Assembly (NCBI GenBank): GCA_015039365.1
Contig: WION01000089.1
Coordinates: 1-64,000, forward strand
Source: Amanita rubescens
Lineage: Eukaryota > Basidiomycota > Agaricomycetes > Agaricales > Amanitaceae
Direction: 5' to 3'
DNA: 64,000 nt
Shown here: positions 15,503-48,607 of the stretch, one piece after another
How positions within the stretch are numbered: the first letter of the stretch is position 1
How the letters are laid out: every line of letters starts with the position of its first letter
Notes under the pieces: model-generated
Databases searched by the model: none
Seen by the model: the letters and a program-made list of their open reading frames with translations, nothing else
What the model was told of the DNA's origin: nothing
Program-made: the position numbers and the translations under genes

Positions 15503-18500
15503 TCAGATATGGGTAATTTGATCATACAAAAACACAAACAGATCATCTGGATCTGAAGGTAACAATGCAGGATTTAGGTGATTCTTCACTTTCTCAACAT
15601 TGCCCTGCTCCTTGAACTGCTTCAAAGCTTCCATCATTGATTCATCAACTGACTTCATCTTCACCCAGAATGCCTGCCTGACAATGATGAGGATAGCTTG
15701 AAAGTGTCAGCTTATAAGAAAGTAAATTGGGCAGGATGCATTACTGGCTAAGATTTGGCAGCCTATGAGCTAATTAAACCAATATTAACTACATTAGTCC
15801 AGATACAAGTTAGAATCTCACAGTTGTGGAAAGCCCATCTGTTTCTTTTCCAAACAACACAAGAATTTCATCCTAAAGATGACAAAGGTGAAATTATAAG
15901 GCCAGTTCAGCATTAGACCTACAACCTGACATGAAGATGAAGATGCCTGCTAAACCATCATCTTGAATTATGTGCTTACCTAAACAGAAGGAAGATTAGA
16001 AAAATTGCTATAAATGAACAGTGGAAGTTGTATTGTACAATCTGTACACAGTAGTATCATCATTAAAATCTAAAATGTTGCACATCTATCCACTTACTGG
16101 CTGTGAAATTCAGATGGAGACATGGCATTGCTAAAAAGAATGAGGGTTTCTCACACCCTGTTTTGATTGGCACCAGATAATATGAGAAGGGACTCTACAA
16201 GTTAAATTTGAAGGACTTACAAACTGTTGTCAATGTCATGTTACACTGAGATCTCTCTACTAGATATATACACAAATTGGCACTTACATTCTATCAGTCA
16301 TAATAAGACTACTGCCTGGATGAAAGAAATGTGCTATGCATGACATACATACTAGGATTCATTGGTGGGATATTTACAGGAACATGAAATGCAGTGCCAC
16401 TCACATTCTATCCATCATTTATACAATGAGACAGCTTGGCAAAAGACAGTGTGATAATGCCACTGACATACTATTTATTATATCGAGTGATGAGGCCCCA
16501 TGCTTGCCAAAAAAATGCTACTTACTACCTGTTATTGATCACAGAAATGGATTTATGAAACTTCCTAATGAATCAAAGTAAGGTGTCACTCACATACTGT
16601 TGACATGGCATGGAATATGTCAAATTATTAAGACCACCTGGCAGCAAAAAGTGTCATGCTGCTCACATGCTATCATGGTTGTTGGATTAAACAATGGTTA
16701 AGATTGCTTTGAAAAGTGCTGTATCACTTACCTGCTGTTGATGACTCTGAGATTATACTTTTAAGCAAGTAAAAGCAAAGTGAGCTTACTACCTGTCAGA
16801 CAAGTCATGATACTCCACAAGTCTTCAAAAAAGAGAATGTCACTCACTCCCTGTTATTAATGGAATAAGATAAAATGGGAACAGATAGTAAAATAGTAGT
16901 ATTACATCTTCCTATTGGTCATGAGCTGGGTATGATTACATGGAAGACAAAAGTGGATTATGCATACCCCCTGGTGATTACAGGATGAGGTCTATTTAAT
17001 AAAGGAAAGAATGGTATCACTTACCGTCTATTTATCATAAGATGAGTTTGCATAGAATATGAAAGTATATTGTCACTCAAATACTGTTAATCATAACATG
17101 AGAAGTGATGGTGGAAAATACAATGCTACTCACTGCCTGACAATTATTAGAGGGGTTGTGATGAAACTGATTGCAAGAAAAAGTGGCTCCTCACTCACTT
17201 CCTATCGGTTATTGAGTTGTGAAGACTAGCCAGTAAATATGATTAATGTGTCACTCACACCCTGTTGTTTATTATATGCTATGAGAGGGGAAAATGGCAG
17301 GAAAAGGTGTAATTGCTCACTTCCTGTTGGAGATTGAATGTGTGGTGTCACTATCTGGTGAAAGTGTGCTCAGGTGCAATATCACTCACTCCCTGTTGGT
17401 CATAGGATTGGACAAGATTAGACTGCCAGAAACAGAAGGTAGAGTGCTACTTGCTTCCTTTTAATCATGACACAATATATGAGATGACATTGTTAGACAA
17501 CTGTTCAATGTCACTTACTAGCTGATCATCAAGAATGAGTTGTGTGTGTGTGATGAAACTGCCTCATGACATCACTTACAAACTTTTGGATTACATACAC
17601 ATGTAAAAATGTGTATAACTTCCTGAAAAAGAAGAAAGGTAGCTCACAAGCTATAGTTCATGTCATGAGATATGCTGAAAGCCTGAAACTGTCTGATGGA
17701 TGGAAGTTCACCCACATCCTATTAGTTATAAAATGGGATTGGTGAGAATGTCCATAGCCTGGGAGGACCAAATGCAGTTTACTCACATACTGGGTAATGT
17801 GAAAAGGTCCAATGAGATTGCCCTGAAGACAAAATTACAAAGTCACTCACATCCTAATGAATATTTGATGAAACAGAACACTACCAGATGAAAGTCACAT
17901 TCACCTTCTGTGGGTCATGGGATGCAACTTTCCAGCAAATACCCAGCAAATATGTTATGCTGCTCACCTCCTGTTTACAGTGGTGTAATGTGGCCATGAG
18001 TTTGCCCAGCAGATGAGATCACAGTGCCACTTACAAGCTAAATATTGTAGTGGTGGCAGATGACAAGGGATTGCCTTGAGAGAAAAGGTGGGGTTGCTCA
18101 CATACTGAATGGGATGTGATGTGATTGTGAATGGAAAATAAAATAACCTCACATTCTAATATGATACCACATGGTAAGACTGCCCACCAGAAAAATAGTG
18201 AAGTTTTACTCACTTCCTGAAGGCAATGAGAAATACTTCATGAAATATGCAGCACTGTCTTACTTTCTGTTGATCATGGATGATATGTGATACATAACTT
18301 ACTTGGCAGGAAAGTGTACATTGCCACTTACTTTCTGTTCAGCATACATATGTATGATGAAGTGCAATGAGATTGCCATTCATGAAGTGAAAAGTCACAT
18401 GTCACACACATACTGTTGGCAAAGAAAGGGGGGATAAATGATGTGTTCAGCATGTTCCAGGAAAAAAAGTACAATGTTACTTACTTCCTGTTAGTCATGG

Positions 18501-21046
18501 AAAGGAATGTGGTAAGACTTGGTGGCAAATAAAAGTCAAGTGTCACCTACATTCTTTGCACCATATGGCATGGGGTTAGGTGATCACTGCCATTGTGGAA
18601 AAACAAGTATGGTATGACTCACTCTCTGTTGGTGATGGAATAATGGAATGAGAATTGCTCAAGAAAATGACACTGTTGTGACTTGCTTCCTGTTGGTCAG
18701 GTATTATTTCTAAGACTGTCCATTAACAAACAAGCAGCACCACTAACTTTCTATGTATATTTAATAGTCAGAGATTCAGAGAAACATGCAGTTATACTTA
18801 TTACTTACAAACTTTTGGCCAATGGTTAAGATGTTGTGATTAAATGTTATGTTTAATAAAATGAAGCATTACCCACCCACTGTTGGTCATGGGATGTTCA
18901 TAAATGTTTGCTTTGCTAATAAAACCAATGCTTCACACACTTTCTAATGCAGACAGTGGGATGCAAGTGAGACTCAATAAATTCTCTACTCACTTCCTAT
19001 TGTTCATGGAATGTAATTTGATGATATTGTTGGTCATAAAATGCTGTTGCTCATTACTCACATGCTGTTAATCATCAGAAGAGACATGATGAGACTACTA
19101 CTTCTTCTTTGTATCACATTGAATGACACTCACATACTGTTAGTTTAAACTGAGACTTGATGAGACTTCATACAAAGATTAGTGTACCGACATCCTGTTG
19201 CAGTTGCAAAGTGAGTGCATGTATGTGCAGAAATAGAGAACTTACATCCTACATATTGGTCATCATGTGAAAAAAGGAATTGCTTATAAGTGCAGAAGCA
19301 CTCACCTCCTGGTACAATGAGCTATCTACATTTCTGAAAGTTAAGTATCACTTACAGTCTGTGTTGGTTGGCATGAGTTATGTGACTAGAAATGGGGAAG
19401 TTACACGCACTTGCTTTTGGTGATGCAATCAGACCTCAGTGGTATCATTCACTGAACATCACATACCCACTTTTGTCCATTGCATTAGATGGGGTTGCAG
19501 GTGCAGTTATAATATTGCTCACTTTCATCAAAAAATGCTAGATTCAACATTGCATTATATTAGTATTCCAGGGTTAAGCAGAATTATGTACATCCTATTT
19601 GTCATGGTATTTAGAAAATAACTTTACAGCAAGGCAGTGCACTCACACTCTGATTCATATTTTTTACCATCTACTATTTGATCTGTGAAAAGCACAGGAC
19701 TTACCTTTTTGATGAACTTGCCTGGGCTTAACTTCTATCTTGTCAAAGGCATTTATACTTACCCAAAAGTATGGAAAGCAGTTGAGGGCATCCCAAATAA
19801 CTTCACTCCATGAACGCCCATGATGAGCCAAGGCTTGTCTGAAAATTGGAATATGAGATTTTATGACACTCACTTAAGGGCTGACTTGACACAAAGATTA
19901 AGATTGTTCATTTGTGTTGAGACAAAAAGCTCATATAGGCTGGAATCATTAATTGCATCAGCAGTTTTCTCACTCAGTTCAGAACAGTCCATCTCTGGTG
20001 TATCCAAGTCTGTTGAGTCAGTGATTAACAAGAAATTTACTGTATCAGGATGTGTGTATCTATCATGAATGTTAATTATTCACACCTTGCAAGCGCACAT
20101 ATGCCTTTGGAGGAAATTGAGCATTTAAGACTTTGGAAAGGAATGCCTCCTGGAAGATAATATCAGCTTTTTCTTCAGCTTTAGACCACCTAGTATCTGA
20201 TCCATCTTGTTCTTCATTCAATTTTGCATATTCCTGAATCACCAGAGCATCAAATTTGGTGAATGCATTCACCAAAGGGACTGTGAACATCCCATTTAGG
20301 ACACATTATCCAAATTCAATAAAAGCAGAAAATTGTCTCAGCTTACCTTTCCCTGTCCCTTTAGTAAAGAACTCAAGTTCTGATGATAAAATGGGGCGAG
20401 AGTCATCCATGGGTATGCAATACCTAAGAAAATGTTGAAACTGGCCATGGCCATATAGAAAAAGTAAAGAATACCAAATTGCATGCAACTGATCTCCAAC
20501 TTCAATTGCAGCAGATTGCCTCTCAATGAATTTCCAAACATCCTGAAGCTCCTTGTTGTCCCCAGCTTCAAATCCCTGTGAATCATGGAAGATAAAGTTA
20601 CTTCCAGGGTAAGTAATCTGGTGCTCTATATCATGTAGGCCTCGCTGAAAATATTGCATATCAATCCTAAGCACAGTTTATGCAGTTTACTCACCTCCAT
20701 TGATGGTGCCAAATGCAATGAAGAAAGTTCTGATTATCTATGTCAAAAGGGTGCCAACCCCATGTAGTACACTGGTGAAGATTGGCAAGCATACCTTCAA
20801 GCTCAACACCATTCTGGTCATATATGATGGGCTTTGTCCCCTTTGCCACACCACAAACCTTCTCAAGGATGGTGGTCTTGCCTGCATTGGCCCTTCCTAT
20901 GATAAGAATACGGAAATGGTGGCATTTGTATCGCTCTTTGAGCACATTAACAGAGCCTACGATGAGAGTTACTAGTAAATGTTAGTAGTGTATGCGGATT
21001 GCGATGTACATGAATCATTTGTGATAGAAGCCTCTGACTGCGACAT
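15503..21046 (-). CDS. P-loop GTPase with single-codon exon array, copy 1
   Basis: The start is ATG 21046 (MSQSEASITNDS), with a first intron ending at TCGTAG. The G domain has the P-loop GRANAGKTT (G1), DSQGFEAG (G3) and TKFD (G4), spread over normal exons down to about 19,750. That part ends in SWSEVIWDALNCFPYFW. The sequence then becomes FIKK (12 bases), about 60 exons of exactly one codon, HFLMK (15 bases), one 6-base exon, a 51-base exon DEILVLFGKETDGLSTT, one more codon and the last exon AFWVKMKSVDE to FLYDQITHI, stop at 15,503. All array exons are multiples of three, so all introns are in one phase. One donor near 17,073 (TTGAGT) looks broken. Related G domains are common in Agaricomycetes; their role is unknown. 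Confidence 0.75.
15735..19735 (-). repeat. microexon-intron array of GTPase 1
   Basis: On the minus strand a unit of about 50-80 bases repeats some sixty times. It consists of a donor GTGAGT/GTAAGT, a variable middle, a pyrimidine- and CAT-rich end, CAG, and one free triplet. On the printed strand this shows as ACTCAC, three bases, CTG, often followed by TTGGTCATGG. Examples of triplets are ttc at 17,330 (GAA), ata at 17,785 (TAT) and cca at 18,872 (TGG). CG dinucleotides are nearly absent. Donors GCAAGT occur near 17,450 and 18,680. The site at 15,974-15,981 reads AG directly followed by GTAAGC, with no base between. Confidence 0.8.
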
Positions 21047-26481: not shown

Positions 26482-29400
26482 TCAAATATGGGAAATCTGA
26501 TCATACAGAAACATAAACAGATCATCTGGATCTGAAGGTAGCAATGCAGAATTTAGGTGATTCTTCACTTTCTCAACATTGCCCTGCTCCTTGAACTGCT
26601 TCAAAGCTTCCATTACTGATTCATAAATTGACTTCATCTTCACCCAGAATGCCTGCTTGACAATGATGAGGATAGCTTGAAAGTGTCAGCTTGTAAGAAA
26701 GTAAATTAGACAGGATGCATTACTAGCTAAGATTTGACAGCCTATGGGCTAATCAAACCAATATCAGCTATGTATATATGTATTAATCCAGATAAAAGTT
26801 AGAATCTCACAGTTGTGGAAATCCCATCATCTGTTTCTTCCCCAAACAACACAAGAATTTCATCCTAAAGATGGCAAAGAGTGAAATTCTAAGGTCAGTT
26901 CAGCACTAGACCTACAACCTGACATGAAGATGAAGATGCCTGCTGAGTCATCTTAAATTGTGTGCTTACCTAAACAGAGGAGAAATTAGAAAAATTGCTA
27001 TGAATGACAGTAAGTTGTGTTGCACAATCTGTACACAGTGGTATCATCATAAAAAAATCTAAAATGTTATACATGTGTCCCACTCACTGGCTGTGAAATC
27101 CAGATGGAGACATGTAATTGTTAAAAAGAAAGAATATTTCTCACAGCCTGTTTTGATCACCAGGTGAATGAGAGAAGAGAGTCTACAAGTTTGACAGATA
27201 TGAGTAACTTACAAACTGTTGTCAATGTCATCCTATGGTGAAATCTCTACCAGATATATGCACACAAATACTTACATCCTGTCAGTCATGAAATCAGACT
27301 GCAGCCTGAATAAACAAAATGTGTGTTGTATGTATGACATACATACTAGCATTCATTGGTAGAATATTTTCAGGAAGGTGATTGGAATGCCACTCAGGAT
27401 AGATCATAAAATTGTAGCATTACTTCTTCCTGTTGGCCATGAGCTGAATGTGACTACTTGGACAAAAGAGCATGATACACACCAACTGGTGATTAAAGGA
27501 TGAGATGTATCTGATGAAGGAAAGAAGGGTATCACTTGCTATCTGTTTATCACAAGATGCCAAGTCTGTATAGCATATGAAAGCATATTGTCACTCACAA
27601 ACTGTCAATCATAGCATGAGACATGATGGGTCTGGCAGGCAGAAGAAATGCAATGCTAGTACTCACTGCCTGAGGATTATTAGAGGGGTTGTGATGAAAC
27701 TGATTGCAAGGAAAAGTGGCTTCCTCACTCACATCCTATGGATTATTGGATGAGTTGTGAAGACTAACTAGTAAACATGATTACTGTGTCACTCACACTC
27801 TGATGTTTATGAGACAGAAAATTGCCTGAAAAAGGTGTAATGGCTCACTTCCTGTTGGAGATTGAATATGTGGTGTCACTATCTGTAGAAGTGCAATATC
27901 ACTCACTCCCTGTTTGTAATAGGATTGGACAAGATAAGACTGCCAGAAATGAAAGGCAGAGTGATACTTGCTTCCTTTTAATCATGACACAAGATGTGAG
28001 ATAATGTGTTAGACAAGTGTCCAATGTCACTTACTAGCTGATCATAAGGATGAGTTGTGTGTGTGATAAAACTACTTCATAATATCACTTACAAACTTGT
28101 GGATCACATATGTAAAAATTGTACAACTTCCTGTCAGAGAGGGAAGGTGGCTCACAAGCTATGGTTCAGGTCATGATATGCTCAAACTTTCTGACAGATG
28201 GAACTTCACTTACATCCTGTTAGTCATGAAATGGGTTGGTGAGACTGCCTGTCACCTGGGAGAACCAAATGAAGTTCACTCACATACTGAAATTGAAAGG
28301 TCCAACTTTGAGACTGCCTTGAAGACAAAATTACAGCATCACTCACATCCTAAAGAATATGGGATGAAAGGAAAGAAGACAGCTAGATGAAAGTGGCATT
28401 CACCTTCTGTTGGTCATGGGATTTGACATCCAGCAGATATCCAGCAGATATGTTATGCTGCTTGCCTGCTGTTATAGTGGAGCATTGTGATGAGGTTGCC
28501 CAGCAGTGAAATCACAGTGATGCTTACAAGCTAAATATTGTATGAAAAGGATAGCCATATGAGAAAAGAAGGGGTTGCTCACATACTGAATGGAATGTGA
28601 TGTGATGTGCAACTGGGAAATAAAGCATCACTCACATTCTTTGGATATGATACAACATGTGGTGAGACTGCCTATCAGAAAAATAGTGAAGTTTTACTCA
28701 CTTCCTGAGGGCATATGATAAGAATACTTCATTAAATATGTTGCCTTACTTTCTGTTGATCATATATAATATGTGATGACTCTGGCAGGAAAGATTACAT
28801 TGCCACTCACTTTCTGTTGAGAATATGAAGTACAATGAGATGGCCATTCATAAAGTGCAATGTCACTTGTTACATACATACTGTTCAAGGGTTGGGGTGT
28901 AAAGAATGTGCTCAGCACACCTGAGAAAGAAAAAGAGTACAGTGTCACTTACTTCCTGTTAGCAATGGAAAGGGATGTGGTAAGACTTTTTGGCAAATAA
29001 ACTAATGTGTCACCTACATTCTTTGCATATGGCATCATGGGGTTAGATGATCACTGCCACTATGCAAAAAACAAGCACAGTATGACTCACTCTCTGTTAG
29101 TGATCAAAGGTAATGGAATGAGAATAGCTTAAGAGGATGATACTGTTACTTACCTCCTGTTGGTCAGGTATCATTTCTGAGAAGACTGTCCATTAACAAA
29201 AAAGCAGTGCCACTAACTTTCTATGTATATTTAATAATGGGCTGTACTAGTCAGACATGGGTCAGAGAATACTTACAAACTGTTGGCAATCAGGTGTGAT
29301 GTTGTGATTAAATATTTTATTTCACCCACCCACTGTTTGTCATAGGATGTCCATAAAATATTTGCCTAATAGATAAAACCAATACTTCACACACTTTCTG

Positions 29401-31540
29401 ATGTGGATGGAGGGATGCAAATGAGACCCAAGGGCCTATGTAAATTCTTTACTCACTTCCTATTGTTCATGGAATGCAATTGATGACATTGTTAAAATGC
29501 TGTAATGTTACTCACATGCTGTTAATCATCAGAAGAGACATGATGAGAGTACTTCCTTGCATCAAATTGAATGACACTCACATACTGTTAATTTGGAATG
29601 AGACTTGATTAGATACAAAGATTAGTGCACTGACATCCTTTTGGTTGTGAAAGCATATCAGCATGTACTAATGTGCAGAAATAAGTTTAATAGAGCACTT
29701 ACTTCCTGCATATGTATTGCACATTAATGTGACAAGAAGGATTTCCCTATAGGTACTGTAGCACTCACCTCCTGGTACAATGAGCCACCTTATGTACATA
29801 TCCAAATGTCAAGTAGTACTTACAGTCTAATTGTTGGCATGAATTCTGAACTAGAAATGGGACAGGTTCACGCACTTGCTTTTGGTGATACAATCAGACC
29901 TCATTGGCATCAGTTATATTTCATCATCACTTACCCACTGTTGTCTATTGCATTAGATCTGGTTGCAGGTGCAGTTATAATATTGCTCACTTTCATCAAA
30001 AAATGCTATTTTCAAGAAATTTGCATCACTATGTCAGCATATCAGGTTGAGCAGAATTACACACATCCTTCACCATGGTATTCAGAAAATAAATTTACAG
30101 CAACATGTGAAAGTGCACTCACATTCTAATTCATATTTTTTGAACATCTACTGTTTTAGGTATGGCTATGAAAAGCACAGTACTTACTTTTTTGATGAAC
30201 TTGCCAGGGCTTAACATTACTAGTCTTCTCAAAGGCATTTACAGCTTACCCAAAAGTATGGAAAGCAGTTGAGGGCATTCCAAATAACCTGACTCCATGA
30301 AGGCTCATGATTAACTAGGGCTTGTCTGAAAATTGTCAAAATTTATCACTGGAATTTGGAATGTGACTCTCACTTAAGGGCTGACTTGACACAAAGATTA
30401 AGATTGTTCATTTGTGTTGAGACAAAGAGCTTGTATAGGCTGGTATCATCAATTGCATCAGCAGTTTTCTCAGTCAATTCAGAACAGTCCATCTCTGGTG
30501 TATCCATGTCTATTGAACATTGTATTAGTATCTCTCATGATTCAAAAAATGTTAATTATTTTCACCTCGCAAGTGCACATATGCCTTTGGAGGAAATTGA
30601 ACATTTAAAACTTTGGAAAGGTATGTCTCCTGGAAAACAGTGTCAGCTTTTTCCTCAGCTTTAGCCCACCTATCTGATCCATCTTGTTCATCATTCAATT
30701 TAGCATATTCCTGAATCACCAGAGCATCAAATTTGGTGAATGCATTCACCAAAGGGACTGTGGGTATGCCATTTAGGACACAAAAATGAAATCAATAAAA
30801 GCACTGGACTTATTTGTGATGGCTTACCTTTCCCTGTCCCTTTAGTAAAGAACTCAAGTTCTGATGATAGAATGGGGCGAGAGCCATCCATGGGTATACA
30901 ATACCTATGAAAATGTTGACTAACTGGCCATGGCCATGTAGAAAAAAATTAAGAATACCAAATTGCATGCAACTGATCTCCTACTTCAATTGCAGCAGAT
31001 CGCCTCTCAATGAATTTCCAAACATCCTGAAGCTCCTTGTTGTCCCCAGCTTCAAATCCCTGTGAATCATGGAAGATAAAGTTACTTCCAGCATATGTAA
31101 TCTGGTCCTCTATATTGTGTATGCCTCGCTGAAAATATTGCATATCAATCCTAGTAAGTTTATGCAGAAGTTTACTCACCTCCATCGATGGTGCCAAATG
31201 CATTGATGAAAGTTCTGATTATTGGTGTCAAAAGGCAACCACAGCCCCATAGTATACAGATGAAGATCAAGCATACCTTCAAGCTCAATACCATTTTGAT
31301 CATATACGATGGGCTTTGTCCCCTTTCCCACACCACAAACCTTCTCAAGGATAGTGGTCTTGCCTGCATTGGCCCTTCCTATGATGAGAATACGGAAATG
31401 GCGGCATTTGTATCGCTCTTTGAGCATATTAACGGAGCCTACACGATGAGAAATTTGAAGAGTTACTACTAGTAAATGTTGATGTATGCAGATTGCAACG
31501 TACATGATTCATTTGTGTTAGAAGCCTCCGACTGCGACAT
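26482..31540 (-). CDS. P-loop GTPase with single-codon exon array, copy 2
   Basis: ATG 31540 (MSQSEASNTNES) starts the gene and the first intron ends just before the exon encoding VNMLKERYKCRHF. G1 is GRANAGKTT, G3 DSQGFEAG and G4 TKFD. The conventional part ends in SWSQVIWNALNCFPYFW. The array follows: FIKK, two codons, HFLMK, W, then about 50 more single codons, the 54-base exon DEILVLFGEETDDGISTT, one codon, and the last exon ending FLYDQISHI. Relative to copy 1 an interval of about 490 bases is missing near 27,385. It removes eight consecutive codon-intron units without shifting the frame. About 41 of 52 shared microexon codons encode the same residue as copy 1. Confidence 0.75.
26710..30230 (-). 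repeat. microexon-intron array of GTPase 2
   Basis: This is the same kind of array as at 15,735-19,735 and collinear with it. Introns have drifted with many small indels while the three-base exons and splice motifs are retained. GC donors occur near 27,547, 27,967 and 28,444. The codeless AG-GTAAGC site of copy 1 is conserved at 26,964-26,971. Confidence 0.8.
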
Positions 31541-43701: not shown

Positions 43702-46700
43702 ATGGCAGAGACCCCTGGCAGTAGGAACAATTAAATGTATTTGACCACAACAAAACTTAAGTGCTGGATACAGACAGTGTGGAACACATTACGGCTCTGA
43801 AGGAACGATACAAATGCCCCCATTTTCGCATTCTAATTATTGGGAGAGCAAATGCAGGAAAAACAACCATTCTCGAGAAGGTTTGTGGGGTAGAGCAAGG
43901 AACAAAACCAATCATATATGATGAGAATGGTAAGCTGGATTAATGTGGCAGCCACTTTTGCATATTCATGAGTCATGACTTTATAGGCACTGAACTAGAA
44001 CCTTCTACACACCTGACACCATCAATTGAGGTGAATAAAAAAATCAATTGCAAATGTCATTGGCATTAATATGCAGCAACTTCTAGAGAGGCACACACAA
44101 TATTGAGCACCAGATTACATACCATGGGAGTAATTTCATTTTCCATGATTCTGAGGGTTTTGAATCTGGGGCAACTGAGGAGTTGGAGCATGTTTGGAAG
44201 TTCATTGGGAAGCGGTCCACTACAACTGAACTAAAAGATCAGTTGCATGCAATTTGGTATCTTTTGAATTTTGGTTGTTAACAGGATCAGATGACTAAGA
44301 TTTCTCAGGTACTGTGTACCTATGGACAGTCCCCGCCCTCTGCTATCTGCAGAACTTGATTTCTTTAATAAAGGGACAGGGAAAGGTGAGCTCTGAGGTT
44401 AATCAACACTACCACAGTGCTTGGCTTGGTATGGTGAGAAGCCTCTACTTTGCAGCAATGCATACAATTTTATATTCATGACTTGCCTGCATATCATGCA
44501 ATCTACCAGTCCAAGCTATGGCATGGCAACTAGAATTATTTTCACAGTTCCTTTGGTGACCATATTCACAAAATTTGATGGTCAAATAATAGCAGAATAT
44601 GTCAAATTGAATGATATGGAGAGTGCTCAAGATAAGTGGGAGAAGGCTAGGGAGAATGCTGAAAATACTTTTCAGACAATTTATCTTCCAAAAATATTGG
44701 ATAGTAAATGTCCTCCCAAAGCCCATGTGCGACTACAAGGTGAGAGTTATGGACATTTCTTAGCAGGAGATGCCAACTCTTTGTAGATATGGATGTTCCA
44801 GAGAACAATTGTCCTGAACTGACAGAGAAGACTGCTGATGCAATTGATGATGACATTCTACATGATCTGTTTGTCTCAACACAGATGAACAATCTTGATC
44901 TTTGTATCAAATCTGCCCTTCAGTATGAATCACATTGACAATAACATTCCACACTTTTGACAGCATCCAGATATGTTTTGATTCAACAAGAACCTACATG
45001 GCATGGAGTTCTCATCATGGTCCTTTCCAAGTTCCCACATTTCTGGGTATTTTAAAAATACTTTTGTGTGTAGTAAGACTGAAAGAGGGACAGGTCAATA
45101 TAAAGGTGGGCTGTGTGATATCATAGGTGTCTTATTTGCCAAAATGGGTAACAGGATGTAAGTATAGTGAGATGCCCTTTATTAATTAAACAATGATGAT
45201 GATTAGAATGTATGTGACACTGTACTTCTACTGCAAGGAAGTGCAAGATGTGTAATGATTCTGCATGAACAGTTGGAAGTTCTACATGTGAGTGGTACTC
45301 TAACCCTCTCTGGATCAGGATCTGATTGTATACATATATGACAGTGGGTAAGTGGTGTGGAATAGATATAGAATTTGATAGGTTATGATCCTACAACAGG
45401 GGGTAAGTGGCACTACATATTCTGCTACAAGTCTCATCAAATCTCATGTTCCACAACAGAAAGTAAGTGACATTGCACTTGGAAGTTCCACACATCACAT
45501 GTGATTATGAATAGAGAGTAAGTGATTGCAGTCATACCACTCATCATTGTTGATGTATCATATGATCAGAGAGTGGGTGCATTTGTTTCTAGCATTTTGA
45601 TCCTATTTTATCTTCAGTTTTATAGGAGGTCAGTAGCATTCATTTTTTCTGCAAGTAGACCTTGTTACATACATCTTGAACAACAGAGGGTGAGTTGTTT
45701 TTATGTTAAGCTATTGCATCACTGAGTCTCATCCCATATATTGAAGGAAGTGAGTCACACTAAGTTTTTCCAGCAAGGTAGCAGTTGTCACATTGCTTTC
45801 ATGGCATACAGGCAGTGAGTGACTGAGTGTTCACTGCTAAGCAATCTGACTTTCACATCCTGTCCAACAGTATGTGAGTTATGGTGATTTCTGCTAGGAA
45901 GCGGTTCACCACACTTTTTTTTTAACAACAGGAGGTGAGTGATGGCACTGTGTTTTGTCTTGCAGTCTCAATTCATGTCATCCCATGGCCAACAGTCAGT
46001 GAGTGATAACAGCTTTTTTTGGAAAGGTAGTCTTGTTGCATCTCATATCTTTTACAACAGGAGGTAAGTCATACTGCAATTACAATGTATTTCCCACCAT
46101 ATCTCACCTCATGACAGTATGTGAGTATACTAGATTTTTTTCTTACAGACACTGTTATTCTGACATATACATACTATGATCTCCTATGAAAAAAAAAACA
46201 GGTTGTGAGCAACCTTTCCTCTCTCCTAGTTTGTATAAGCACATCTCATCCCACAACTAACAGTATGTAAGTCACACTACAACCTGCTTTGCAAGACATT
46301 GTGTCCCATTTCAGCTCATGACCAACAGGTTGTGAGTGATATATATTTCAGTTTCTCCTGCCATGTGACATCATTATCACAATCATCCATAACCAACAGA
46401 GGGTGAGTCAGTTTATTCTTATGTAGGCTCACTACATCACATCTAACAATCAACAGGATGTAAGCACTACTGTTGCATTTCTTGCAAGGCTATTGCATCA
46501 CAGCTCATTTTTTAACCAACTTTAGGCTGTGAGTAGCAGTAGTTCTTCTGCCAGGCAATCTCATCATGCCTCATACTATCCTGATCAACAGCAAGTAAGA
46601 CATGCTGCACTTTTCTGCCAGCTGCTGCATCAGGCTTCTCACTCATTAATTGACAGGATGTGAGTAGCACTTCTGTTCTTTGATACATGATTACATCTCA

Positions 46701-48607
46701 TCCCACAGGGTGTGAGTAATACTGTGCTATTGCTATGAGCTATTTTATAACATTTCCAATAGCTTGTAGGTGACACTCTACTCCATAATTTTTCCAGACA
46801 GTCAGAGCATATCACTCATTGCATGTCCAACAGGATGTGTGTGACACTGCATGTTTTTCTGGGACCTGAAGTTGTCTCATCAACCACCTTATCCTATGAT
46901 CAACAGGAAGTGAGTGTTGCAATTATTGCTGCAAAGCATTTTGTCCCAACTACTTTGGCCAACAGACAGTAAGTAGTATGCAGTGACTTTTCATGAGAAA
47001 ATTGCCAAATGGTCACATCACATATGAATAAAAGACTGTATGTGGAGTTGAATATTGAAATTTGTGCAGTTTGATAATCATATCTCATTGCCAACAGTCT
47101 GCAAGTAACATTGCAGCTTATTCAATTTCCAGCCATCTGATCTTACTCACTCAATAGGCTGTGAGTGATGCTCCAATCTTTTCTTGAGTCTCACCCTGCT
47201 GATTGTGTGATCAACAGCAAGTGTGTTTTATTGCATTTTGTTCTGCAAAAGTTATCTCATCATATTTCAACCCATGAATAGGAAGTGAGTTTGTATGCTG
47301 CAGTTCTTTCTGCCAGGTTATCTTATACATGTCTCATACTAACAGCTTGTGAGTGAAGTTATGTTTTTCCCCTAAGCAGTCTCTTCACAGAATTTTTTCA
47401 TAATCCCTAGGAAGTGGGTGACACATCCTGCCTTCAATACAGACTTCTCATCATAAAACCAACAGGGAGTAAGCCATTTATCACTTTCATCTGCTAGGTA
47501 ACCCTTCACATGCCATGACAGCGTGTAAGTGACTTTGAACTACTTTCTTGAAGTCACACATCTCATTTTTTGACTAACAGCGAGTGAGTTACATTGCTTA
47601 GTATGCAAGTGGCTTTCATCATATTTCAAACAGGGAGTGAGTGAAATTGCAATTTCTCTCACTGTGTAATTTTATTTAAGATGATCCTGGAATGGCCAAA
47701 TAGGAAGTAAGTGACATTAACACTCTTTTTTACCTTCACCTTTATTCAACCTATTTCATGGTCAACAGCAAGTGAGTGATACAGTTTTTTCAACTGCTAC
47801 ATTGTCTTATGCATCACATACTACAAATAAAAGCTTGTGAGTGATTCTACAGGTATGTTTTGCCTTCATTGCAATCTAATTTAAGAACCAAAAGAGAGTG
47901 GGTCATACTCATGTTTCTCCATAAATAATCTCATAATGTCTTGATTATTAGACAGTAAGTAACACCAGATTTCTTTGCTCACTGTGTCATTTTTCATCTG
48001 ACCTAACAGAAAGTGGGTAAATATTATTTGTTTCAATCAATCTTTTTATGCTAATATTATGATATGTGCATAGATTGTAAGATACACTAAGGATTCTCTA
48101 ATAGCTGCCTCTTGATTTGGTGTATCAAGGCAAGTGATGAAAAAGAGCAAATAAAATATGCTGACAAACATATAAGGTTGTATGTCCACTGCTGAGATTC
48201 TATTGAAATTTTGCTCCTTCATCCTTACTAGTCTAAACTGCAATACCTCTTTGGTGATGAATCAGAAAAACTTTCAAGAATCAGTGTAAGGCCTGTGTCT
48301 GATTAATTCTGCACTATGATGCAGCTGATGTTGTAACCAGCCCACAGCCTGTCAGCTGTTAGCTGGTAAGTCACTGTATTGTATTTGTTGTTTTATTTGA
48401 CCTAATAGTTACTAAGCAACTAATATCCTTGCCAAGCTGTCATTTTGGATCAGGAAACCAATCTATGAATCAATCATGGATGCCTTGGAACAGTTTGAAA
48501 GACAAGATGATGTGAAGAAACTGAAGCTACAAATCACTTCTGAATCAATGCCTTCCAATTTGGAAGATTTAATTGCTTTTCTTTATGATCAGGTCATCCA
48601 CATTTGA
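43702..48607 (+). CDS. P-loop GTPase with single-codon exon array, copy 3
   Basis: ATG 43702 (MAETPG) joins over an intron to MLDTDSVEHITALKERYKCP. G1 is GRANAGKTT, G3 HDSEGFESG and G4 TKFD in VTIFTKFDGQ. The conventional part ends TWHGVLIMVLSKFPHFW. Then come VNIK (12 bases), three codons, LEVLH (15 bases), W, about 44 more single codons, the 54-base exon SKLQYLFGDESEKLSRIS, one codon (CTG), and the last exon SFWIRKPIYES to FLYDQVIHI with stop at 48,605-48,607. The exon lengths and order equal those of copies 1 and 2 although the protein differs widely. One junction (intron around 44,928-44,967) does not keep frame with the obvious splice sites; a frame error or another donor is possible there. 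Confidence 0.75.
45080..48400 (+). repeat. microexon-intron array of GTPase 3
   Basis: On the printed strand the unit is CAG, three bases, GTGAGT or GTAAGT, then about 40-75 bases often containing CTGCCAGGCA, CTCATC and CCAACAG. Clear cases are cagTCAgtgagt at 45,993, cagGAGgtaagt at 46,062, cagGATgtaagc at 46,455 and cagGAAgtgagt at 46,905. I count 49 single-codon exons. One GC donor (TCTgcaagt) lies near 47,100. No triplet is a stop codon. Confidence 0.82.

Follow-up and report, generated by a model that had tools for sequence, protein, structure and literature searches.

We analyzed a window of 64,000 nucleotides, the whole stretch of DNA considered here, from the basidiomycete Amanita rubescens (contig WION01000089.1 of assembly GCA_015039365.1, positions 1 to 64,000, forward strand). 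On its minus strand lies a GTPase gene, designated copy 1, in which ordinary exons for the GTPase domain are followed by a long array of exons of a single codon each, and then by the C-terminal exons (Table 1). It belongs to a large family and is one of its old members; in the young ones, identical introns surround varying codons. In what follows, loci, contigs and proteins are designated by L, C and P numbers, respectively.

An array of one-codon exons in copy 1

A splice chain with priors on intron length and exon length, and without a stop-codon rule, found 52 three-base exons in copy 1, as many as 36 of them in unbroken succession, and 55 introns. Six single codons, chosen from the site list and the models of paralogues, were added by hand, giving 58 one-codon exons. 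The array region also holds exons of 15, 6 and 51 bases, and the predicted spliced segment reads SD-HFLMK-WQTEDDYHEKWFK... Exons of 7 and 72 bases that the chain also placed were taken as mis-parses. Two other models were dropped. The first, a Viterbi model that forbade stops and left exon lengths loose, yielded long exons that were implausible; the second continued to miss weak units.

A first-pass annotation of this DNA had described about sixty minus-strand units of AG, three bases and a donor, an observation that is confirmed here. Among the exon sizes it listed, those of 6, 15 and 51 bases are present, and the one of 12 bases was not found in copy 1; a 12-base exon, VDRE, exists in L022-type paralogues. 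Its introns of about 50 to 80 bases measure 47 to 75 once the hand additions are included, with one exception of 113 bases before the last codon. The donor GTRAGT that it gave for the units does not apply to all of them. The donor is intact in 57 of the 58 one-codon exons and reads TT in the remaining one.

Table 1. Exons, array units and related features of the three GTPase copies in the window
Feature	Position	Strand	Basis or remark
Copy 1 GTPase exon RGLHDIEHQ...HDSQGFEAG...	20475..20644	-	DNA reading; P0024 alignment; 3' and 5' limits tentative
Copy 1 GTPase exon YCIPMDDSRPIL...	20347..20423	-	DNA reading and alignment with relatives
Copy 1 GTPase exon with FTKFD	20086..20280	-	DNA reading and alignment with relatives
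Copy 1 GTPase exon DLDTPEMDCSEL...NNLNLCVKSAL	19874..20009	-	DNA reading and alignment with relatives
Copy 1 exon with FPYFW at its 3' end, then donor 19761-19762	19763..19838	-	structure from here to 19649 uncertain
Copy 1 array, 58 one-codon exons by hand (52 automatic), phase 0	15923..19649	-
HFLMK 15-base exon within copy 1 array	19523..19537	-	present in copy 2 too
TAT (Tyr) unit of copy 1	17079..17083	-	donor TT in window copy, GT in L011 and L013
GAAGAT (Glu-Asp) 6-base exon of copy 1	16906..16911	-	placement by eye
Hand-added codons of copy 1	D 19592-19594; D 19246-19248; N 18153-18155; Y 17081-17083; I 16039-16041; V 15923-15925
DEILVLFGKETDGLSTT, 51-base exon of copy 1	15822..15872	-	aligns to PELFSVFGEHS... 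of P0024
LIGCQILA exon of copy 1	15745..15769	-	like TACQVLAA of P0024; join by eye
Copy 1 final exon ...AFWVKMKSVDES...DQITHI*, up to stop codon	15503..15696	-	DNA reading and alignment
Copy 2 GTPase domain	30267..30660	-	80% identity to copy 1 query
Copy 2 array: 45 three-base exons, 15-base HFLMK exon, 48 introns	27029..30187	-
Copy 3 GTPase domain, part	44790..44924	+
Copy 3 array: 47 three-base exons, 52 introns	45066..48408	+

The arrays exceed chance and avoid stop codons

In 100 dinucleotide shuffles of the copy 1 region, no more than three three-base exons appeared in any, as against 52, 45 and 47 in the three window arrays. When both strands of the window, up to its final 4 kb, were cut into 20 strand-tiles of 6 kb, four contained array pieces and the other 16, holding none or an array edge only, gave at most two.

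The three-base exons behave as codons. Pooled over 19 arrays, a single stop occurs among 851 of them, compared with a mean of 56 and a minimum of 41 in 2000 trials in which the three codon positions were permuted within arrays; L009 to L018, L025, L034 and L037, being near-copies, fragments or poorly chained, were left out of this count. Genome-wide, 1044 units with exact flanks enclose a three-base exon, and none of these is TAA or TGA (TAG was not counted). The same exact flanks enclose exons of 1-2 bases in 16 cases, of 4-5 bases in six and of 6 bases in nine; with up to two mismatches allowed in the flanks, there were 1653 units of three bases and one with no base at all.

The third bases of the one-codon exons have an unusual composition: A 53%, T 38% and C 2% in the same 19 arrays. 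An A or T thus ends 91% of these exons, compared with 64% of the codons in four GTPase exons of copy 1, where C accounts for 16%. The preference is strong and extends to synonyms (TTT 64, TTC 0; TAT 37, TAC 1; GAT 53, GAC 2).

Proteins of the family read through the segment

Three full-length JGI proteins carry the segment on short contigs: P0024 (461 residues, contig of 1506 bases, 120 of them outside the frame), P0029 (478 residues, 1486 bases, 49 outside) and P0045 (445 residues, 1492 bases, 154 outside). With 49 to 154 bases outside the frame these contigs have no room for an array, and their shortness indicates that they are probably transcripts. The peptides of 11 arrays, made up of one-codon exons only, were compared with the late parts of nine JGI proteins and with 500 shuffles. 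Six of the 11 (L020, L021, L022, L026, L028 and L044) match a protein, and none of the 500 shuffles did as well. L020 aligns with P0029 over nearly its whole length (DWFERAESIARDERQFYDEDG...KERNKRQQFLKREIL against DWFESADDAAGKEREYYDDG...KERDHRRDFVEREIL; z 13.8), and with P0045 and P0024 at z 13.2 and 12.7 (0 of 500 shuffles each). L021 matches P0029 at z 7.8, and P0016 is matched by L026 (z 11.1), L028 (11.0), L044 (9.6) and L022 (6.0).

Outside the segment P0024 and P0045 are alike, with 279 of 292 positions equal before it and 87 of 92 after it. Within it 34 of 58 paired positions are equal, and its lengths are 77 and 60 residues; the segment is thus variable in genes that are probably expressed. 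Searching the protein database with the late part of P0024 returned only P0024 and P0045, and the array part of P0085 returned only P0085 itself. P0117 and P0120, two other JGI proteins, are similar GTPases that begin like P0119 of Gymnopus androsaceus and have differing low-complexity segments past the FPH motif; similar variable segments may exist beyond Amanita.

Codons of old arrays are conserved between near-copies

The window arrays were compared in nine pairs, whose near-copies are not mutually independent; three of the pairs are near-identical and give little information. In five pairs, with intron divergence of 2.3-3.3%, differences affect 2 of 480 sites at codon positions 1 and 2 and 3 of 240 at position 3, compared with 367 of 13483 intron interior sites. 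In the paralogue pair of copies 1 and 2 the corresponding figures are 8 of 88, 3 of 44 and 419 of 2386. Between near-copies of old arrays, copy 1 among them, introns have changed more than codons.

Similar arrays occur throughout the genome

The longest runs of three-base exons are 39 in copy 2 and 44 in copy 3, and similar arrays occur at many further loci of the A. rubescens genome, which was searched as an assembly of 75.7 Mb in 786 contigs. The genome contains a large family of these GTPases. A search with one piece of copy 1 gave 51 DNA matches (40 of 191 candidates scored), and one with P0077, a public A. rubescens protein, gave 236 exon-level matches (102 of 1060 candidates scored); several contigs are mutual near-copies. 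Runs of at least 10 three-base exons were found at 38 of 40 modelled loci, many of them near-copies of one another.

Repetitive DNA of this kind raises the question of an assembly or consensus artefact. Contigs C239, C193 and C12 terminate inside codon-exon arrays, as if the repeats had broken the assembly, and near-identical units are hard to polish. Against this stand the number of loci with long runs, the window arrays themselves, which are not highly repetitive, the avoidance of stops, and the same codon order on separate contigs. Doubt is confined to single codon swaps and to exons of 2 or 4 bases, and as an account of the arrays an artefact is scarcely credible.

Some arrays are interrupted or irregular. 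In L009:3020-9140 (C373), a near-copy of copy 1, about 6 kb of other DNA follow the first units; they contain five open frames of at least 120 residues, two of which resemble helicase pieces by eye, and the interruption is probably a mobile element. L013:2621-3215 (C101), a near-copy of the copy 1 array, has an insertion-like gap of several hundred bases between units. The array at C749:2070-4154 has 13 exons of 1-2 bases among its exact-flank units and is decaying or badly sequenced.

Young arrays repeat one intron around varying codons

The arrays of the window are old, and that of copy 1 is decayed; young ones lie on C667/C79, C13, C254, C769, C228 and C82. In these, a 62-base intron, largely byte-identical, is repeated in tandem and the codons between its copies vary, a pattern that goes beyond the first-pass annotation. 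In L022, L023 and L036 (on C667, C254 and C13, respectively) introns of 62 bases predominate, many of them byte-identical even across arrays, while the codons vary. Among units with a 62-base intron, the exact consensus of the array is matched by 41 of 67 in L022, 25 of 33 in L023 and 38 of 43 in L036, and young arrays on several contigs share one common consensus. The 38-base start of the intron has 1537 near copies genome-wide, and its reversed control has none. The intron interiors of old arrays, the window copy included, resemble one another slightly more than shuffled sequences do.

Pairs of identical introns mostly carry different codons: 511 of 706 pairs in L036, 672 of 834 in L022, 262 of 300 in L023 and 73 of 91 in L026 (L019 and L024 have no identical-intron pairs). 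Codon sites are 85, 20 and 64 times as diverse as introns in L036, L022 and L023, and only 3 to 5 times in L026, L019 and L024. Codons that follow exact-consensus introns form a narrow and array-specific set: CTA, CAA, CGA and CTT in L036, mainly GTT and GGA in L044, and mainly GAT, CGA, TTT and GAA in L022. Adjacent units share codons beyond shuffles in L036 and L023, and not in L022, L026, L019 or L024.

Two alternatives address this pattern directly. A contiguous exon might have been invaded by one mobile intron between neighbouring codons, in which case identical introns would separate codons that are old and different; this accounts for identical introns and differing codons together, and introner-like elements are reported in fungi (PMC4457414). 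On the other hand, seven of seven stretches chosen, among the 1537 places, where listed intron matches were sparse lay in arrays, and the third-base composition given above makes the codons unlike an ordinary exon cut up. We know of no agent that inserts introns exactly every three bases some 70 times, and this too counts against an invasion. The sharing of codons between neighbours in L036 and L023, although absent from the four other arrays, and an extra unit in L037 (see below) fit duplication instead. We consider such an invasion unlikely.

Units might also duplicate and then have their exon bases rewritten, as in diversity-generating systems, with the introns remaining identical. The excess diversity of codon sites in L022, L023 and L036 speaks for this codon-targeted mutagenesis, as do the variation of L036, nearly all of it at codon positions 2 and 3, and a case of ATC versus CGA in which three bases change at once. 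Yet the excess is much smaller in L026, L019 and L024, paired codons are equal among L022, L037 and L038, and exchange between units explains three-base changes without a new machine; a targeted mutagenesis is therefore quite improbable in our estimation.

How the arrays change

Comparisons were made unit by unit where whole units differ, as nucleotide alignment misplaces gaps there (L022/L037, L038/L037, the L023 pairs and L045/L025). All 87 units that can be paired between L022 and L037 have the same codon, and a single CGA unit is additional in L037; all 62 units of L038 agree with L022/L037 up to its contig end. L028 and L039 differ in one of 42 units (CAG to CGG) and at none of 2593 intron sites. 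L026 and L040 are alike at both ends and diverge in between: of 46 paired units 37 are equal, and 32 units have no partner. L041 and L043 differ in two neighbouring codons, ATC GGA versus CGA CGA, between identical adjacent introns, and between L023 and either of them four units in a row are different, a 4-base exon being among these. Such changes fit a duplication of units combined with exchange among units; passive duplication alone is insufficient, because copied introns should carry copied codons.

Weighing the evidence

The array of copy 1 is real and coding, and it is very probably spliced codon by codon. For the view of the first-pass annotation that a single coding gene holds about sixty one-codon exons here, the support is strong: stops are depleted, codons are conserved between near-copies and, for the family though not for copy 1 itself, proteins read through the segment without introns. 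Overall, we are confident that copy 1 is a coding fungal GTPase gene whose C-terminal segment consists of some 58 one-codon exons, predicted to be spliced singly, and that this segment likely changes by codon units.

Several observations weigh against this reading. First, the donor at 17079-17080 of copy 1 reads TT, where the near-copies L011 and L013 have GT; in-frame skipping of the Tyr unit is predicted. Thirteen of the 16 exact-flank exons of 1-2 bases come from C749, and L036 has exons of 2 and 4 bases with a net frameshift. Together with the donor of copy 1, these irregularities may mean that some arrays are decayed or wrongly assembled.

Second, the avoidance of stops is not absolute. 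The single stop counted, in L026, vanishes if AG-AAA-GTAAGT is read in place of the neighbouring AG, giving lysine, the residue of P0016 and P0085 at that place. L025, which was not counted, also has one stop, where its near-copy L045 has arginine; an earlier, cruder pattern count gave 2 stops in 496 against 43 expected; and some longer exons placed by the chain hold stops and are mis-parses.

Third, some arrays have no clear counterpart among the proteins. L019 and L041 match moderately only (z 4.2 and 4.3, one of 500 shuffles as good for each), and the three window arrays reached at best z 2.5, 2.4 and 0.6 against the nine JGI proteins, with 12, 10 and 129 of 500 shuffles as good. The splicing of copy 1 itself is thus predicted from its family and not from a transcript of its own. 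The JGI contigs could be intronless genes. Three others, P0016, P0043 and P0085, are weaker evidence: they break off not far beyond the first part of the segment, and the bases outside their frames number 285, 357 and 967.

Fourth, in the young pair L041/L043 the bases of codons differ more often than those of introns (4 of 156, compared with 4 of 3465 and a 2-base gap), and single codon swaps between near-identical arrays could be polishing errors.

Finally, the public protein P0077 joins FPHYW to the C-terminal part across about 1.9 kb, which comes near to the removal of a whole array as one intron that the first-pass annotation named as contrary evidence. The stretch that it jumps is L046 (C650:814250-816320), with 30 introns and 25 three-base exons by the chain, so that this gene model evidently removes nearly all of a stretch comparable to the copy 1 array. 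Seven other annotated A. rubescens relatives (P0001, P0002, P0005, P0025, P0028, P0038 and P0059) end before or near the array start. Such models speak for a rival account in which the array is one long composite intron, its AG-NNN-GT units being recursive splice points or a decayed repeat, with 4 kb removed untranslated. An untranslated intron would, however, be expected to show neither the shortage of stops, in the pooled arrays and genome-wide, nor codon conservation across near-copies, nor intronless proteins carrying the segment, and we judge a composite intron very improbable.

Under the favoured reading of singly spliced codons, splicing would proceed by intron definition, with removal of successive short introns of about 60 bases. 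Every removal would extend the growing exon by three bases and leave it again beside a donor, a process resembling recursive splicing with a three-base step. New units would arise by tandem duplication of intron plus codon, with the frame kept. Identical introns would permit unequal exchange and short gene conversion, by which single codons could be deleted, added or replaced, and selection would keep both ends of the segment and favour variation in its middle, which is predicted to be flexible. More tentatively, as an idea that we do not yet lean towards, these genes may be codon-cassette machines: identical introns would serve as recombination handles, allowing the segment to be edited residue by residue, through gain, loss and exchange of units within and between dozens of genes, as a rapidly rewritable variable region that the spliceosome would put together one codon at a time.

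The GTPase and its predicted fold

Copy 1 contains GRANAGKT, HDSQGFEAG and FTKFD, which we take to be its P-loop, DxxG-like and TKFD motifs. Its joined domain matches the MMR_HSR1 profile at E 1.1e-5 and 26 bits, with a cut-off of 21.9; this profile is listed for copy 1, P0029 and P0024, and is above the cut-off in copy 1 only. NACHT and ANK families are absent from the profile matches of the joined copy 1 protein, P0029 and P0024, and P0077 has a NACHT row of 17 residues, far under the cut-off. With 1123 homologues at E of at most 0.001 (120 listed), the protein is, as judged from its sequence, a P-loop GTPase of MMR_HSR1-like type of the Agaricomycetes.

No solved structure was found by sequence for the joined GTPase domain. 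In the model of P0029 the GTPase is well ordered and residues 335-359, in mid-segment, have a predicted local distance difference test (pLDDT) score below 50. The nearest folds are Irga6, Irgb10 and GM4951, at 9-13% identity and template modelling (TM) scores of about 0.3-0.4, with a septin, EngB and a dynamin-like protein nearly as high. As to the role of the protein we offer a guess: it might bear a variable segment for sensing, joined to a GTPase that by predicted fold comes closest to the immunity-related GTPases, which combine a GTPase with a helical domain. Identity and TM score being low, and generic GTPases being close, membership of that family is not claimed.

Significance and comparison with known systems

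The arrays are an extreme test of splicing, with up to 86 three-base exons in 5.8 kb (L037), each of which would have to be joined correctly. They also provide natural experiments on intron definition and on three-base exons, an example being the broken donor of copy 1, whose counterparts in two near-copies are intact. Young arrays invert the usual pattern, as coding sequence varies and introns are identical, which suggests protein evolution by addition or swap of codons without frameshift. Exons of three bases are hard for standard annotation, and this may explain why the public models of the family examined here end early or jump the segment.

Many short in-frame exons in fast-evolving proteins are likewise found in the micro-exon genes of Schistosoma and the bicycle genes of aphids. 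Exons in both are usually longer than one codon, and to our knowledge neither has a tandem repeat of intron and codon. In recursive splicing and RS-exons (PMC6224609), a donor is regenerated at the junction at each step, as here; in the arrays each step is predicted to leave a codon behind. Introner-like elements and stwintrons of fungi (PMC4457414 and PMC8469720) resemble the young arrays in that a genome holds many near-identical introns. Unlike them, the intron copies inspected here form tandem arrays of a single kind, with three bases between neighbours.

Among the papers listed by a literature search, none described such arrays for Amanita or any other basidiomycete, or identical introns separating varying codons, and PMC11121469 states that functional microexons were previously undescribed in filamentous fungi. 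The first-pass annotation knew of no gene with dozens of three-base exons in a row, and here it was overtaken by a precedent: the NACHT-ANK (nank) genes of the truffle Tuber melanosporum have tens to dozens of alternatively spliced 3-bp exons, according to passages of PMC4986451, PMC3689799, PMC9815663 and PMC10197012 that cite Iotti et al. 2012. As in those passages, there are dozens of tandem in-frame 3-bp exons in the arrays of A. rubescens, in an expanded fungal family of P-loop nucleoside triphosphatases (NTPases), and it is the C-terminal part that is altered; diversification of a recognition segment has been proposed for Tuber. The two systems differ in that Amanita belongs to the Basidiomycota and not the Ascomycota, and in that its gene encodes an MMR_HSR1-like GTPase and not a NACHT-ANK protein. 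The citing passages describe alternative splicing for the Tuber genes, and they do not mention identical introns with varying codons, the feature of the young arrays here. The gene structure therefore has a precedent; what is new is the phylum, the gene family and, in the young members, the codon-cassette pattern. Taken together with the truffle, as far as those passages describe it, the same trick appears in two fungal phyla and in two NTPase families.

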